Notes under the pieces: generated by a model
Databases searched by the model: none
Told to the model about the DNA's origin: nothing
What the model saw: the letters and a program-made list of their open reading frames with translations, nothing else
Shown here: piece by piece, positions 2,489-8,015 of the stretch
How the letters are laid out: every line of letters starts with the position of its first letter
How positions within the stretch are numbered: position 1 is the stretch's first letter
Source of the DNA: a virus
Reading direction: 5' to 3' (one strand)
IMG/VR virus record: IMGVR_UViG_3300046009_010534
Location: 1-26,821 of that record
DNA length: 26,821 nt
Program-made: the position numbers and the translations under genes

Positions 2489-2920
2489 ATGCCGATCCGC
2501 CCCGAAAACCGCGCGCTTTATCCCGCTGATTGGCCGGCGATCTCGCTGGCGATCCGCGAGCGCGCCGGCCAGCGCTGCGAGGACTGCGGCGTGCCGAACC
2601 ACGCGCTCGGCGGACGGGATGGTGGAAAATTCTATCCGGCGGCGTCGCAAGGCGAATGCTCCCTTGGCCTCGATTGGCCCAAGCCGGGCGATTATGCGTG
2701 GTGCAGGGGGCTCCAGACGGCGCGGCTCCGCATCATCCGCATCGTGCTGACCGTGGCGCACCTCAACCACGATCCGACCGACAATCGGCCGGAGAACCTG
2801 CGGGCGCTCTGCCAGCGCTGCCACAACCGGCTGGACGCCGCGCACCGCGCCGCCGGGCGCAAGGCGCGCGCGCGGCGGGACATGGCGGCCGGCGACCTGC
2901 TTCAGGAGGGCTCGCCTTGA
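2489..2920 (+). CDS. HNH endonuclease
   Basis: The 143-residue protein begins three bases after the preceding stop. It has a CxxC pair (C30, C33), the HNH core H91-LNH94 followed by DNRPENL (N99, N103), and a second CxxC-H (C108, C111, H112) in CQRCHNRLD. The two cysteine pairs would bind structural zinc, and the histidine/asparagine core would bind the catalytic metal. The size and architecture fit free-standing phage HNH nucleases, which act in DNA packaging, homing or degradation of competing DNA. It is far from the terminase (about 3.5 kb and a leftward operon between), so a packaging role is less clear than for terminase-linked HNH proteins. Its last 19 bases overlap the end of the convergent XRE gene. 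Confidence 0.85.
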   Translation: MPIRPENRALYPADWPAISLAIRERAGQRCEDCGVPNHALGGRDGGKFYPAASQGECSLGLDWPKPGDYAWCRGLQTARLRIIRIVLTVAHLNHDPTDNRPENLRALCQRCHNRLDAAHRAAGRKARARRDMAAGDLLQEGSP

Positions 2921-3156
2921 CCCTCGCCCCGCGCCCCGATCGGCTCAAGGCCGGCCTCGATCGCCGCGCAGGCGAGCGCCGCCATGCGCGGCGGCGGGGC
3001 CGGCGCGCGCGCGGGGTTGAGCTGATACCCGCGTTCCCACAGCTTGACGGCCTCGACGCTGACGCCCAGCAGCGCCGCGAGGCGCGGGCGGGACAGGCCG
3101 CGCCCCTCGCGCCAGGCGCGAAGGGCGGGGCCGGTGAGGGACGAGGCGGGCGGCAT
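2902..3156 (-). CDS. XRE-family helix-turn-helix protein (repressor/Cro-like candidate)
   Basis: The 84-residue protein is read leftward and starts at the ATG immediately after the upstream gene's stop. Residues about 12-48 (LRAWREGRGLSRPRLAALLG followed by VSVEAVKLWERG) form a classic lambda-repressor-type helix-turn-helix, with helix 2 at RPRLAALLG and recognition helix at SVEAVKLWERG. The C-terminal 30 residues are Pro/Ala-rich and probably unstructured, with no dimerisation or peptidase domain, so it is Cro-like in size. It is the last gene of a five-gene leftward operon. The best guess is that it binds the inverted repeats at the operon promoter (4722-4768), but no direct evidence links them. 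Its tail overlaps the convergent HNH gene by 19 bases. Confidence 0.8.
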   Translation of the reverse strand: MPPASSLTGPALRAWREGRGLSRPRLAALLGVSVEAVKLWERGYQLNPARAPAPPPRMAALACAAIEAGLEPIGARGEGQGEPS

Positions 3157-3351
3157 TCAGGCGGGCTCCCAGGCGAGCGGCGTGACGCGGAGAACATCCA
3201 CGCCCTGGCCCTCGCCGTCAAATCGCTTCGTGGGATCGTCGCTCTCGGCCCAGACATCGCAGGCGAGATCGCCGGCCTCGTCCTCGTTCTCCGCCTCGAC
3301 CTCGACCCAATAGCGGACCGTCTCGACCAGCGTGACGTTGTATCGCGGCAT
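3157..3351 (-). CDS. Small acidic protein, DpnD/PcfM-like
   Basis: The product is 64 residues and strongly acidic. Its N-terminus (YNVTLVETVRYWVEVEAENE then DEAGDLACDVW) reads as two beta strands followed by a helix. That pattern resembles the DpnD/PcfM small-protein group, whose members have the form Y.V.I.E......VEAES.EEA. I make that comparison from memory, so it is tentative, and the biochemical role of that group is unknown. A Shine-Dalgarno-like GGGAGG lies 8 bases upstream of the ATG. The gene is packed between neighbours with only 3 bases on the upstream side and a direct stop/start junction downstream, so it is part of the leftward operon. Confidence 0.65.
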   Translation of the reverse strand: MPRYNVTLVETVRYWVEVEAENEDEAGDLACDVWAESDDPTKRFDGEGQGVDVLRVTPLAWEPA

Positions 3352-3354
3352 GGC

Positions 3355-3756
3355 TCAGCCCTCCCGTCCGATCAAGTCCATAAGGTCAATCTGCGCCGCG
3401 CCATCCCCGAACAGGGGCAGGGCGGACGTGTCGAACTCCTGCGCCCGCGCGGGGCGCAGCGGCGCGGCGGCGCGGCGCTGTATTTCCCCGGTCCGCGCCG
3501 GGCTGAGGCTGCAGACGCCGACGGCCAGCCGTCGCCCGCACGCGCCACGCACGCGGGCCATTTCCATCGCGCGGATAGAGTCGGTCCGCATCCAGATCGC
3601 CTCGATCGTGCTCGCGCCGATCGCGCGGCCGTCGACGGCGACCTGATCGCCGACCAAAAGGCCGCGCGCGCCGGAAATAGCGACATCGCCGCGCCTGGCG
3701 TCAAAATCGCCATGGCATGGGCGCTCGATATTGGTGTTAGGTTCGGTCGTTTTCAT
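3355..3756 (-). CDS. Hypothetical protein of the leftward operon
   Basis: I do not recognise this 133-residue protein. Two in-frame ATGs exist, at 3762 and 3756. An AGGAG at 3766-3770 stands 3 bases from the first and 9 from the second, so 3756 is preferred; the longer form has 135 residues. The central part (VAISGARGLLVGDQVAVDGR followed by AIGASTIEAIWMRTDSIRAM) alternates strands and short turns. The C-terminal third is Ala/Arg-rich and ends in a short acidic-hydrophobic tail (ALPLFGDGAAQIDLMDLIG) that could be a docking peptide. It has no cysteine pairs, signal peptide or membrane segment. A GC-rich hairpin separates it from the gene upstream. Confidence 0.6.
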   Translation of the reverse strand: MKTTEPNTNIERPCHGDFDARRGDVAISGARGLLVGDQVAVDGRAIGASTIEAIWMRTDSIRAMEMARVRGACGRRLAVGVCSLSPARTGEIQRRAAAPLRPARAQEFDTSALPLFGDGAAQIDLMDLIGREG

Positions 3757-3787
3757 GATCATGCGCTCCTGTGTGATCGTGGGGACT

Positions 3788-3815
3788 GCCCCGGCGGCGT
3801 GCAGGCCGCCGGGGC
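3788..3815 (-). other. Intercistronic GC-rich hairpin
   Basis: GCCCCGGCGG at 3788-3797 and CCGCCGGGGC at 3806-3815 are perfect inverted repeats. One more C-G pair can form inside, giving an 11-bp stem with a 6-base loop. It sits directly downstream of the 162-residue gene's stop on the leftward transcript. No run of T follows on that strand, so it is not a clear intrinsic terminator. It may act as an RNA-stability or partial attenuation element between the two promoter-proximal genes and the rest of the operon. Confidence 0.55.
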
Positions 3816-3822
3816 GATGGGC

Positions 3823-4311
3823 TCAGGCAATGGCGATCTGGCGGACGTTGTCCGCCGTGATGCACCACGGCGCGTCAGCATAGCCGGGCAGGCGCGAAAT
3901 AATGGCGTAGCGCAGCCGATCGCAGACAACGCGCGCGGGCGAGGCTTCCCATTCCGGATGATCGCAGGACTGATATTCGAACGCGTCAAGAGCCTTCAGG
4001 ACGCCAATCATGGACTTGACCTGCACGCGCCAGTTGGCGCGATAGGCGTTGAGGGCCGCCACGTAGCCGGCGCGCTCGGACAGGACCTGGTCGTTGGCGT
4101 CGTTGCGGTCGAGCCGGTAACGATGCGTCACGCTGCGCAGGTTCTCGGACCAAAGCGCGCGGCCAAGCGCCTGCATGTCCTCTGGCGTCAATATCGTCGT
4201 ATAGCCGACGCCCGACGATCCAATCGCCTTGCAGGGGACGTCCAGCCGGACGGCAAGTGCAGCCGCGACGAGAACGTCGATATGTTCCTTGTCGACGAAA
4301 TAGCAGGACAT
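3823..4311 (-). CDS. Phage protein of a widespread uncharacterised family
   Basis: The product has 162 residues. It has the general pattern of an uncharacterised family common in phages and mobile elements: an N-terminal F.V...HIDVLV segment (residues about 5-16), a central LW.ENLRSV.HRY segment (about 54-65), a later VLKALDAFEYQSCDHPEWE segment, and a C-terminal RYAIISRLPGYADAPW. I recall this layout from many phage accessory regions but know no function for it. A GGAGG lies 9 bases before the ATG, and only 3 bases separate it from the upstream gene's stop. It is the second gene of the leftward operon. There are no membrane segments; the spread of cysteines does not look like a zinc site. 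Confidence 0.7.
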   Translation of the reverse strand: MSCYFVDKEHIDVLVAAALAVRLDVPCKAIGSSGVGYTTILTPEDMQALGRALWSENLRSVTHRYRLDRNDANDQVLSERAGYVAALNAYRANWRVQVKSMIGVLKALDAFEYQSCDHPEWEASPARVVCDRLRYAIISRLPGYADAPWCITADNVRQIAIA

Positions 4312-4314
4312 GGC

Positions 4315-4674
4315 TCAGGCCTCCATCTGACGCTGGCGGAAGGCTGCGCCGTAGTGCTTCGGGCCTGGCTTGAAGCTGCTGGCGCGCTTCAGGAGCGCCG
4401 CAGGGCAGCGCGCGGCGTAGGTGTATGGTCCCTGCAGCTCTTCCATGTACTTGACATAGCCGCCTTCAAACTTGGCGACGCCGATCCACAGGTAGCGACC
4501 GTCAAGCTCCGGCTCATAGTAATCCGCGATGGCGTCGTAGCGGTCGGCATAGGCGAGCGTGAAAACATACGAGCCGACGCGCTCGATAGCGGCAAACGTC
4601 GTGCGGGGATTGTCGCGGCGAACGAAGTCCTCAAGCGTTTCGCCGGGCTTCAAGGTGTAGCTGATGGAACCCAT
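4315..4674 (-). CDS. Hypothetical protein, first gene of the leftward operon (DUF6927-like)
   Basis: The product is 119 residues, starting at the ATG at 4674. That start is chosen because an AGGAG stands 8 bases upstream and the protein-like sequence (MGSISYTLKPGETLEDFVRR) begins there; the frame stays open to 5145 but that part lies over the control region. The protein has a central strand-rich block (YLWIGVAKFE) and GPYTYAARCPAALLKRAS. This reminds me of the small phage/plasmid family DUF6927 (MG...PE...; GPYY.DCP..IL.LL). The resemblance is from memory and weak. The function is unknown. As the promoter-proximal gene it should be the most highly made product of the operon. Confidence 0.65.
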   Translation of the reverse strand: MGSISYTLKPGETLEDFVRRDNPRTTFAAIERVGSYVFTLAYADRYDAIADYYEPELDGRYLWIGVAKFEGGYVKYMEELQGPYTYAARCPAALLKRASSFKPGPKHYGAAFRQRQMEA

Positions 4675-4984: not shown

Positions 4985-5298
4985 GGGACGCTCGGGACGC
5001 TTTCGGGACGCTCCCCCATTTCGCGCAAGGCGTTGATATCGCTGGCGAAAATGGAAAGTTGGGACGCCGGGACGCTTGGGACGGCCTCGCGCGTATAGGA
5101 AAACGCCAGACAATCGAGCGGTGCGCAAACGTGAAGTTCTCTCACGCGCGCGCGCGTCCCTATCGTCCCATCGTCCCAAGAACTCTAAAGATATATATAT
5201 ATCAATGGGTTAGAGCTTGGGACACCTTCAAGGCGATCCGTCCCGAGCGTCCCGACTTTCCGATTTTGCAAGCAACATCAAGGGCTTGGCTGCGTCCC
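4985..5298. repeat. GGGAC(G) iteron-like array
   Basis: GGGACG occurs on the plus strand at 4985, 4994, 5005, 5061, 5069 and 5078. Its complement CGTCCC occurs at 5155, 5164, 5172, 5239, 5248 and 5293, and a GGGAC lies at 5219. Most neighbours within a cluster are 8-9 bases apart, with one gap of 11. The unequal steps break any reading frame, so the repeat is a DNA-level pattern and not a protein repeat. The copies face each other across an AT-rich palindrome at 5173-5223. The layout resembles replication iterons or a cooperative operator array. Confidence 0.65.
5173..5223. repeat. Interrupted AT-centred palindrome inside the iteron array
   Basis: GTCCCAAG-AA-CTCTAA at 5173-5188 mirrors TTAGAG-CTTGGGAC at 5210-5223: 14 paired bases with one AA bulge. 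Between them lies the 14-bp palindrome GATATATATATATC (5190-5203). It is the most AT-rich spot in the window and the outermost arm bases are iteron copies. It could be a duplex-unwinding element, a strong late promoter region, or a cruciform. Confidence 0.6.
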
Positions 5299-5351: not shown

Positions 5352-5942
5352 ATGACCGCGAAAGCCAAAAGCGGGGTGTTGGGCGTGATTGCGGGAGCCG
5401 TGGCGGAAACCGAGGCCGCGCTCCTGGCCGCGCGCGGCGAGCAGCTGGGGTTTTTCGAGCCGGCCGGGCGGGCGATGACCGCCGAGGAAGCCGCCGCCGA
5501 GCGCAAGGGCGGCAGGCCCAAGGGCGCGACCAGCGCGAAAACCCGCGACGTGGCGCGGTTTCTCCAGCAGGTCGGGGCCGATCCGCTCCTGCACCTGGCG
5601 CGCTGGCTGACCCTCTCGCCGGAAGAAATGGCGGCGCGGCTGCGGATCAAGGTCAGCGAAGCGATGGACCGGCAGACCCTGATCGCCAAGGAGCTCGTGC
5701 CCTTCGTCCACGCCAAGCTGGCCCCGACCGACGATCAGGGACGCGTCGCGCCGTCGATCGTGTTCCAGATTGGCGCGACGGGCGGCGCGGGAAGCCTCGA
5801 CCAGGCGGGCGGGATGCCGGCCTGGCAGGCCGATCTGATCGCGCAGGGCGTGGACCTGAAAACCGTGGAAAATCAAGCGCTTGCGATTGAGGCGGGAGAA
5901 GAAACCGCGTCCGTCGCGACGGAACGGGAGGAAAAGCCGTGA
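5352..5942 (+). CDS. Hypothetical protein at the head of the packaging cluster
   Basis: The product has 196 residues from the ATG at 5352, which has a GGGAG about 9 bases upstream. The frame is open from 5217, but that part is the repeat region. The sequence is largely helical, with a basic patch KGGRPKGATSAKTRDVARFL (about residues 52-71) and a segment SPEEMAARLRIKVSEAMDRQ that could be a helix-turn-helix-like unit. It is the first gene of the late operon and stands near the large terminase. A small terminase role (DNA recognition) is therefore possible, but the ring-forming domain is not evident, so this is inference from position. Downstream it overlaps the next start as GTGA. Confidence 0.65.
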   Translation: MTAKAKSGVLGVIAGAVAETEAALLAARGEQLGFFEPAGRAMTAEEAAAERKGGRPKGATSAKTRDVARFLQQVGADPLLHLARWLTLSPEEMAARLRIKVSEAMDRQTLIAKELVPFVHAKLAPTDDQGRVAPSIVFQIGATGGAGSLDQAGGMPAWQADLIAQGVDLKTVENQALAIEAGEETASVATEREEKP

Positions 5943-6226: not shown

Positions 6227-6483
6227 AGCCGCCGGCCCCGATGTCCCGGCAGGTCGAGGCGGTCCGCCTGGTGCTGGCGCGGCAGATGCGGCTCGCCGCG
6301 GGCGGCGGCGCGTCCGCGCTCAACATCGGCCGGCAAGCCGAAGAGGCCCTGATCGCCGACGATCTGACGGACGCGCTGAAAACGATGGAATGGCTTGCCG
6401 CCAACGCGAACGACCTTCGCGCGGCGCTCCGCGCGTGGCGAGACCGGGACGGCGCAAGAGAAATCGGGGAGCAGGCGGCATGA
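6223..6483 (+). CDS. Small helical protein next to TerL (small terminase candidate)
   Basis: The product has 86 residues, starting at GTG 6223 with a strong GGGGAGG 5 bases upstream; the start overlaps the preceding stop and the end overlaps the TerL start (ATGA). The protein is nearly all helix: SRQVEAVRLVLARQMRLAAG, then QAEEALIADDLTDALKTMEW, then DLRAALRAWRDRDGAR. Its place directly before the large terminase is where small terminase subunits usually lie, yet it is short for one and no DNA-binding motif is visible. Either this gene or the 196-residue gene could fill that role. Confidence 0.65.
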   Translation: MKPPAPMSRQVEAVRLVLARQMRLAAGGGASALNIGRQAEEALIADDLTDALKTMEWLAANANDLRAALRAWRDRDGAREIGEQAA

Positions 6484-8015
6484 CCTCCTTCGGCTCGCTC
6501 GATCCGGTCCTGAAGGCGTATGAAGCCGGGGCGCGGGTGTTCGGCTCGGCCGGCCCGGTGTCGGACGCGTTCATCCTGTCGCGCGGCGCGGTCGATCTTT
6601 TGAACGGGCCGCTCGGATCGGCCAAGACGACGAGCTGCGTCAAGCGCGGGCTGAACGCGGCGCGGCTCCAGCCGCCGATCCGGACGATGACGGGGCAGTA
6701 TGTGCGGCGCTATGTGCTGACCGTGTTTCGGGAGACCTACGACCAGCTCTGGGGCGCGACCATTCCAAGCTGGAAGAAGGTTCTCAATCCGGACCTTGGC
6801 GTCGGCGCGTTCACAGGCTCGAGCCCGCGCCCCGCCGAGCATGTGATCGAGTTCGTTGACCGCGACGGGCCGGTGCAATTCATCGCGCGGTTCAGGGCTT
6901 TCTCGGACGACGCGGACCCGGACAGCCTCGGCGGCTTCGAGTGCACGGACGCCTACCTGAACGAAATGGACCAGCTGCCGGAAAAGCTGTTCACCAACAT
7001 TCTCGGGCGCATCGGGCGCGATCCGACGCGCGGCGAGGTCGGCCTGCCCGATGTGGACGGGCTGGTCTATGGCCGCGTCTTCGGCGACTGCAACGCGCCC
7101 TCGCCGGACAGCTGGGTATTCCGCGATTTCTGGAGCGCGACGAAGCCGGCGGGCTACCGCCTGTTCCGCCAGCCCGGCGGGCTGGACGAGGGCGCGGAGA
7201 ACCTTGGCGCGGTCGGACGCCAGTATTACGTCCAGCAGGAGCAGGCGAACCGCCATCGCCCCTGGTGGGTGAAGATCAAGATCCACAACAAGCCCGGCTA
7301 CAACCGGGAAAACGACGTGGTCTTCGCCGACTTCGAGCATGAGGACCATGTCTCGCCGGTCGAGATCAGGGTTGAGCCCAACCTGCCGGTGATCGTCGGC
7401 TTCGACGGCGGCGCGACGCCGGCGGCGGCGCTGCTGCAGGAGCATGGCGGCGGCAAGGTCCGCATCCTCCACGAGGTGGTGATCGAGCGCGGCGACGAAA
7501 TCGATCTGGCGCGCGAGCTGCAGCGGGTGATGGGCCTGCCGCGCTTCAAGGGCTGCGAGTTCGTGCTGAACGGCGATCCGGCGACGGGGACGGGCGAGGA
7601 CCTGCCGAACGGCTCGTTCCGCCGGCGGCTGGCGGAAGAGCTCGGCATGTCGGACGATTGGGTGCGCGTGGCCGAAACCAACGATCCGGAAATCCGCCAC
7701 CGCGCCTTCCGCGAGGCGATGAAGCAGCGCGGCGGCTTTCTGGTGGACGGCGTCCACTGCCCAACCATCGTGAGGGCGCTGAATGGCACGTTCCACTATC
7801 ACACGATCCGGGGCTCGAAAGGGCGCGGCAATGTCGTCAAGACGCCGGACAGCCATGTGATGGAGGCGGCTGAATACGCCGGGCTCCTGCTCGGCTCGGA
7901 GCGGGCGCGGTTGCGCCGCTCGGCCCTCAAGGAACAGCGTGAGCGTCGGCGTCAGGAAGTCCAGCAGGGCCGGACGGGCCAGCGGTATTCGCCGCTGCGC
8001 CGCGCCGGCCCCTAA
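6480..8015 (+). CDS. terL: Terminase large subunit
   Basis: The 511-residue packaging motor is started at the ATG overlapping the previous stop. The ATPase half has a terminase-style Walker A, GPLGSAKT (residues 43-50), and a Walker B-like stretch DAYLNEMDQ (about 157-165). The C-terminal half looks like the RNase H-fold nuclease: IVGFDGG (D309), NGDPATG (D366), and DSHVMEAAEY (about 457-466), each providing an acidic metal ligand. The protein cuts concatemeric phage DNA and pumps it into the prohead through the portal encoded two genes downstream. Length is typical for podovirus terminases. The function is secure; the packaging mode (pac, cos or terminal repeats) cannot be told from the sequence. 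Confidence 0.92.
   Translation: MTSFGSLDPVLKAYEAGARVFGSAGPVSDAFILSRGAVDLLNGPLGSAKTTSCVKRGLNAARLQPPIRTMTGQYVRRYVLTVFRETYDQLWGATIPSWKKVLNPDLGVGAFTGSSPRPAEHVIEFVDRDGPVQFIARFRAFSDDADPDSLGGFECTDAYLNEMDQLPEKLFTNILGRIGRDPTRGEVGLPDVDGLVYGRVFGDCNAPSPDSWVFRDFWSATKPAGYRLFRQPGGLDEGAENLGAVGRQYYVQQEQANRHRPWWVKIKIHNKPGYNRENDVVFADFEHEDHVSPVEIRVEPNLPVIVGFDGGATPAAALLQEHGGGKVRILHEVVIERGDEIDLARELQRVMGLPRFKGCEFVLNGDPATGTGEDLPNGSFRRRLAEELGMSDDWVRVAETNDPEIRHRAFREAMKQRGGFLVDGVHCPTIVRALNGTFHYHTIRGSKGRGNVVKTPDSHVMEAAEYAGLLLGSERARLRRSALKEQRERRRQEVQQGRTGQRYSPLRRAGP

Follow-up and report, generated by a model that had tools for sequence, protein, structure and literature searches.

Positions 4985–5298 of IMG/VR virus record IMGVR_UViG_3300046009_010534 hold a dense array of short GGGAC repeats in two orientations, which raises the question of whether this phage initiates replication of its DNA there or uses the repeats for some other purpose. 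The window analysed here is the whole record, 26,821 bases in length. It is probably a fragment of a genome because no end repeats were found in it. A preliminary description of this DNA had proposed either a replication origin or a cooperative operator.

Layout of the GGGACG array

A recount of the array bore out the repeat counts, coordinates, strands and steps of the preliminary description. Twelve copies of GGGACG lie within the 314 bp, six on each strand, whereas 200 dinucleotide shuffles of the window placed at most 5 in any 314 bp. Across the record the hexamer shows no overall enrichment (31 copies observed, 32.2 expected), and 12 of the 31 are inside the array; the motif is therefore not equally dense throughout, a point the description had asked to see checked. 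The array sits in a 677-bp gap between divergent genes, one running leftward (4315–4674) and the other rightward (5352–5942). The leftward ORF, which had been taken for an OmpR/PhoB-type winged-helix protein at the left edge, has no Pfam or PHROG match, and that assignment could not be upheld. Cumulative GC skew, another proposed check, was calculated around the array site and yielded nothing in favour of an origin, with no switch at the array in this 26,821-base record fragment. A nucleotide search of the array region among named phages gave no match.

The copies are arranged as an exact dyad. Five plus/minus pairs (5078/5155, 5069/5164, 5061/5172, 4994/5239 and 4985/5248) share a common centre at 5119 with 0 bp deviation. 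The left half holds six plus-strand iterons, each a full GGGACG, in an outer triplet, L1 to L3 (4985–4990, 4994–4999 and 5005–5010, with GGGAC cores at −132, −123 and −112 from the centre), and an inner triplet, L4 to L6 (5061–5066, 5069–5074 and 5078–5083; −56, −48 and −39). L3 has no exact mirror partner. The right half also has six GGGAC cores: the minus-strand inner triplet R1 to R3 (5155–5160, 5164–5169 and 5172–5177; +39, +48 and +56), the plus-strand R4 (5219–5223; +102), and the minus-strand outer iterons R5 and R6 (5239–5244 and 5248–5253; +123 and +132). Separating the inner triplets is a central core of 71 bp (5084–5154) that is not strongly AT-rich, with a GC content of 62% compared to 69.5% for the record.

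R4 matches the GGGAC core only, being followed by A, and had been described as a lone plus-strand copy. The copy is indeed present, but it is not an outlier, since it fills an out-facing slot at about +102 that is used in most relatives (see below). The outlier is instead the thirteenth copy, on the minus strand, at 5293–5298 (core at position 5294, +177), which lies outside the 6+6 core.

Perfect matches to the IHF consensus occur three times in the whole record, and two of these are mirrored at exactly −87 and +87. The left site (5026–5038) is a perfect WATCAANNNNTTR on the minus strand. The right site (5200–5212) is a perfect TATCAATGGGTTA on the plus strand and is also found in the closest relative, L393. 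The WATCAANNNNTTR consensus was thus matched at non-random positions, although there are no binding data. The highest AT content of any 24-mer region in the record is found at 5178–5207, a segment that may represent an unwinding element as well as the A-tract of the IHF site. That the AT-richest spot lies amid the repeats, as the description had noted, is correct in that this is the AT maximum of the record; however, the spot is off-centre, between the inner and outer clusters of the right half. Its interpretation as a plain melting site is not supported, as the spot includes a perfect IHF consensus with a mirrored counterpart in the left half. As a separate observation, an inverted repeat (CTCTAA ... 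TTAGAG, 5183–5216) brackets the ATATATATAT/IHF segment.

The two halves of the array are thus near-perfect mirror images about 5119, each with an IHF-consensus site between its inner and outer triplets. Shuffles of the array region produced no more than two mirror pairs, compared to the five observed. Five pairs were reached in 4 of 20,000 trials under a uniform-position null and in 295 of 20,000 under a step-shuffled null, and the symmetry in the window alone is therefore good, but not overwhelming, evidence.

Helicase genes and the arrays found with them

The gene at 51–2222 on the plus strand encodes a Cch/SaPI-Rep/D5-like AAA+ helicase, which we propose as the origin-binding initiator. The protein matched phrog_21086 (2.6e-61) and phrog_35358, annotated as 'DNA primase' (4.3e-32). 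Its predicted structure (mean pLDDT 80) aligned best with SCCmec Cch (5dgk_A; Z 16.6, 427 residues over model residues 161–720, rmsd 6.2), with the SaPI5 primase-helicase (Z 15.1) and MCM close behind, and Foldseek matched the model to the SaPI5 primase-helicase, poxvirus D5/E5 and AsfvPrimPol. An isolated model of the C-terminal region had no significant PDB match. The predicted fold is that expected of a self-loading AAA+ initiator of the SaPI Rep/Cch/D5 type, with self-loading itself being inferred. In the window, helicase and array are separated by 2.76 kb of cargo, a distance that counts against an origin. This island (2489–4674) contains, as judged by Pfam and PHROG, an HNH endonuclease gene followed by leftward small genes encoding an HTH_3 protein (2902–3156), a DpnD/PcfM-like protein and unknowns. 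Cargo or extra spacing is found at the same place in ∼17 of 75 relatives.

Relatives were collected without reference to the motif. Single-protein locus searches were too narrow, and we instead aligned the window helicase with three relatives; this family alignment alone fetched 80 viral loci. A clustered 6-mer (p<1e-7) was present within 800 bp 3′ of the helicase gene in 58 of the 80 loci. The corresponding figures were 65 of 1791 for other tiles, a count that includes real arrays at a greater distance from the helicase, and 0 of 400 for shuffles. With the window included, 76 of 81 helicase-family loci carry an array somewhere in the locus. Conservation in relatives, which the description had named as a check, thus did not refute an origin, and it extends to the closest relative found (L393/L014). 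There, amid sequence that has otherwise diverged, both inner triplets are retained together with the AT-rich/IHF segment and the +102 site, which reads TGGGACAC in L393.

Each lineage tends to have its own repeat, with 19 different cores in all, but the core has the form NNNAC in 74 of 75 arrays. The exact number of cores is 12 in 36 of the 75 arrays and 11–13 in 58 (median 12), laid out as 3+3 and 3+3 in mirror order. Measured from the centre, in-facing inner sites lie at 28–50 bp, out-facing sites at 84–115 and in-facing outer sites at 120–138, and the mean AT fraction of the family is highest on the helicase-distal side, +60 to +80 from the dyad. Of 51 non-redundant arrays, 38 have IHF-like sites in the gaps between inner and outer sites and 13 have them in both gaps; shuffles gave 2.4 and 0.0, respectively. 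Named phages fetched by helicase similarity, not by motif, also have 11–12-copy arrays directly 3′ of the helicase gene, starting no more than 20 bp from its end: Synechococcus MinM1 (CTCACA), Bdellovibrio phi1422 (GGTAAC), Stenotrophomonas S1 (CCGCAC) and Pseudomonas Lodos (ACCCAACA). Several other named phages fetched in this way had no such array.

Searches by motif were also performed. Scanning viral contigs for three spaced GGGACG copies gave 119 stretches, many with mirror arrays in two orientations, and in 10 of 10 cases tested the long ORF ending just before such an array belonged to replication primase/helicase or helicase families (PHROGs; also Pfam). A stricter mirror pattern was matched by 63 bacterial genome contigs and 56 viral stretches. 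By tblastn, a D5-type helicase was detected in 25 of the 63 genome contigs and in 29 of 42 newly fetched viral loci, in most cases with between a few tens and a few hundred bp separating its 3′ end from the array. A sizeable share of the genome-contig matches to the strict pattern have only 4–5 copies or lie near unrelated genes, and may be due to chance. The reversed hexamer, GCAGGG, was intended as a negative control for the geometry but returned real 12-copy mirror arrays of another lineage, making its raw match counts unusable for that purpose; the controls used instead were shuffles and the remaining tiles of each locus. Most GCAGGG arrays have an ORF of 700–900 residues ending within ∼60 bp, which was of the DUF5906/Toprim or Prim-Pol type in the cases tested. 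Because these arrays share both the geometry and the primase-helicase ORFs, the array geometry is more general than the GGGACG hexamer. It also recurs in a second helicase family, D5/DUF5906, in which an array lies within 1 kb 3′ of the helicase gene at p<1e-8 in 53 of 80 loci, compared to 4 of 597 tiles. IHF sites are strongly enriched in the family of the window, positionally suggestive in the D5 family and not enriched in the GCAGGG family, indicating that IHF is not a universal part of the array.

Function of the array and rival explanations

The gene immediately right of the array (5352–5942, plus strand) occupies the position of a terminase small subunit (TerS) gene, directly before the gene for the terminase large subunit (TerL; 6390–8015, plus strand; phrog_2, 1.5e-12), and has only a weak match to phrog_15261, of unknown function. 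Similarity of the variable triplet was compared to identity of each neighbouring protein. The partial r for the helicase was 0.141, above the permutation 99% level of 0.102, whereas the TerS-position gene gave 0.062, below the 95% level of 0.074, and TerL gave 0.031. The triplet thus appears to covary with the helicase and not with the TerS-position gene, but the covariation is weak, the largest permuted value (0.174) being greater than that observed. Which helicase segment would read the repeat is uncertain, since a whole-set scan of segments peaked at residues 201–279 while matched close pairs favoured the C-terminus. Assignment of repeat binding to the C-terminal region rests mainly on the SaPI/Cch2 literature.

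We consider it very probable that the GGGAC array is the DNA replication origin of this phage. The earlier guess at an origin is strongly supported by computation, though not by experiment: the clustering, the dyad, the recurrence of arrays in the helicase family with repeats of their own, the structure matches and the PICI literature all seem to favour it. The sites, their symmetry, the IHF consensus and the helicase association were computed, while binding, bending, stoichiometry and replication are inferred. In the mechanism we propose, the helicase encoded at 51–2222 would bind each GGGAC through its C-terminal region, with roughly one site per subunit. IHF would bend each half such that the inner and outer triplets could reach one ring, and one helicase hexamer would sit on each half-origin, made up of three sites, the IHF bend and three further sites. 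The two mirrored halves would then bring two rings head to head as a double hexamer, the DNA would open in the AT-rich right arm, and replication would proceed both ways. The variable triplet, GGG of GGGAC, could give each phage its own origin specificity.

The main rival is a packaging site (cos/pac), because the distance from array to TerL is tighter than that from array to helicase. The repeats would then be binding sites for the small terminase, with bending by IHF as at lambda cosB, where repeated sites and IHF lie next to the small terminase gene and IHF is likewise found between repeats. The array is always just before the gene in the TerS position, and its spacing to TerL is 778–1577 bp in 70 of 71 relatives, even with cargo between array and helicase; in the family of the window this spacing is tighter than that between helicase and array, as a packaging site would predict. 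TerS also adjoins the arrays of L026-type and many GCAGGG loci. Lambda cosB has three R sites without a 6+6 dyad and is bound by TerS, not by a helicase. Adjacency to the terminase holds in the family of the window but was detected for only 1 of 51 D5-family arrays (few query families and short flanks limited the sensitivity), which follow the helicase and have phrog_9306 as the next conserved gene. In phi1422 and Lodos the array follows the 3′ end of the helicase gene and no terminase is annotated nearby, and the iteron triplet tracks the helicase instead of the TerS-position gene. Packaging remains, in our view, an improbable explanation.

The cooperative operator of the preliminary description, which would serve divergent leftward and rightward transcription, was not supported and is in our view very improbable. 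The divergent intergenic location and the HTH_3 protein are consistent with it, but in most relatives the array is downstream of a co-oriented helicase gene, the helicase is the neighbour that the array families have in common, and twelve sites in a two-fold layout would be unusual for an operator. No sigma-70-like promoter was found in the array region, which is weak evidence. A partition or centromere-like site of the parS/parC type is hardly credible: short tandem repeats bound cooperatively are typical of parC, yet none of the genes scanned near the array was recognised as encoding a partition protein, and arrays associate with helicase genes across families. We can practically dismiss a chance repeat or coding-sequence relic, already disfavoured by the shuffles (at most 5 copies in 314 bp) together with the exact dyad. 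While coding sequence or simple repeats can account for short runs of GGGAC in other contigs, the sites are conserved in L393 within a diverged background, and arrays recur in relatives with other motifs.

Relation to known origins and wider occurrence

SV40 T-antigen and papillomavirus E1 are self-loading double-hexamer helicases whose origins contain short sites arranged as mirror images. Compared to the array, which we read as an origin, these systems have fewer sites, an N-terminal DNA-binding domain and no IHF. A closer likeness is found in the rep-ori of SaPI/PICI elements. In PICIs the origin is located 3′ of rep, an AT-rich region is invariably flanked by two sets of iterons, and the rep-ori of an E. 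coli PICI functions as a replicon in E. coli and maintains a plasmid (PMC6092414). SaPI Rep is thought to bind as two hexamers (PMC6092414, PMC7581432), and a site of 5-bp iterons located downstream of the Cch2 gene is bound by the C-terminal domain of that protein (PMC7581432). Like the SaPI/PICI rep-ori (SaPIbov1, EcCICFT073; PMC6092414, PMC7581432), the window has short iterons in two mirrored sets (6+6 cores, with 5 pairs mirrored exactly) near a putatively self-loading AAA+ replication helicase, an element-specific iteron sequence and AT-rich DNA nearby. Unlike those elements, it has mirrored IHF sites, about 12 iterons, and its AT-rich stretch within the right half rather than at the centre. 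Direct placement 3′ of the initiator gene (within 800 bp) is seen for 58 of 80 relatives but not in the window, in which cargo intervenes. The element is also no satellite lacking a full structural gene set, but a tailed phage whose record encodes its own large terminase and head-tail connector. For these last two reasons we do not file the array as a strict SaPI/PICI member; the best reading is that an autonomous tailed phage here carries an origin of SaPI/PICI type. SCCmec Cch is the best structural match to the helicase, but its own origin is not described in PMC7581432, and the Cch2 site reported there has three iterons only and no mirror layout.

Whether these arrays form a general origin class of tailed phages is, in our judgement, evenly balanced. 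Such a class would have about twelve 5-bp iterons in a mirrored order of three, IHF and three per half, one iteron per subunit of a double hexamer, and a fixed AC anchor with a variable triplet as a private origin code. Most database phages have no assigned replication origin. If the origin reading of the array is right, origins of phages with these helicases could be read from sequence, and a short variable repeat would allow initiators to be matched to their origins. The layout, which PMC6092414 describes as unique to satellites, would then be widespread among autonomous phages, and the present results indicate that it is common in tailed phages. A sharp, directly testable prediction about double-hexamer helicase loading also follows from the 6+6 arrangement. 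We found no published report of the mirror-array layout in autonomous phages, but the literature search was largely without subscription journals and priority is not established.

Several further arrays were observed. The GCAGGG/GTGCGG loci (L231, L242, L308 and others) constitute a second lineage, with 12-copy mirror arrays 6–80 bp after DUF5906/Toprim helicases and without IHF enrichment. The gene phrog_9306, of unknown function, is conserved directly 3′ of D5-type arrays (L395, 3955–4746; L401, L404, L423, L448 and L470) and may be involved in initiation. Three Lentisphaeria contigs (L137, 3984–4216; L138, 3160–3400; L181, 2762–2985) contain 16–19 copies of ATGGGA with no recognised helicase beside them. 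One-strand GGGAC arrays in L109 (2007–2269; 8-bp steps), L088 (10163–10347; 11-bp steps) and L080 (10085–10418; 21 copies) are apparently a different kind of repeat. Lastly, the Streptococcus satellite phage Javan71 (L307, 3942–4200) has eight GTCAC copies in an irregular layout directly 3′ of its primase gene, as expected of a satellite-type origin.
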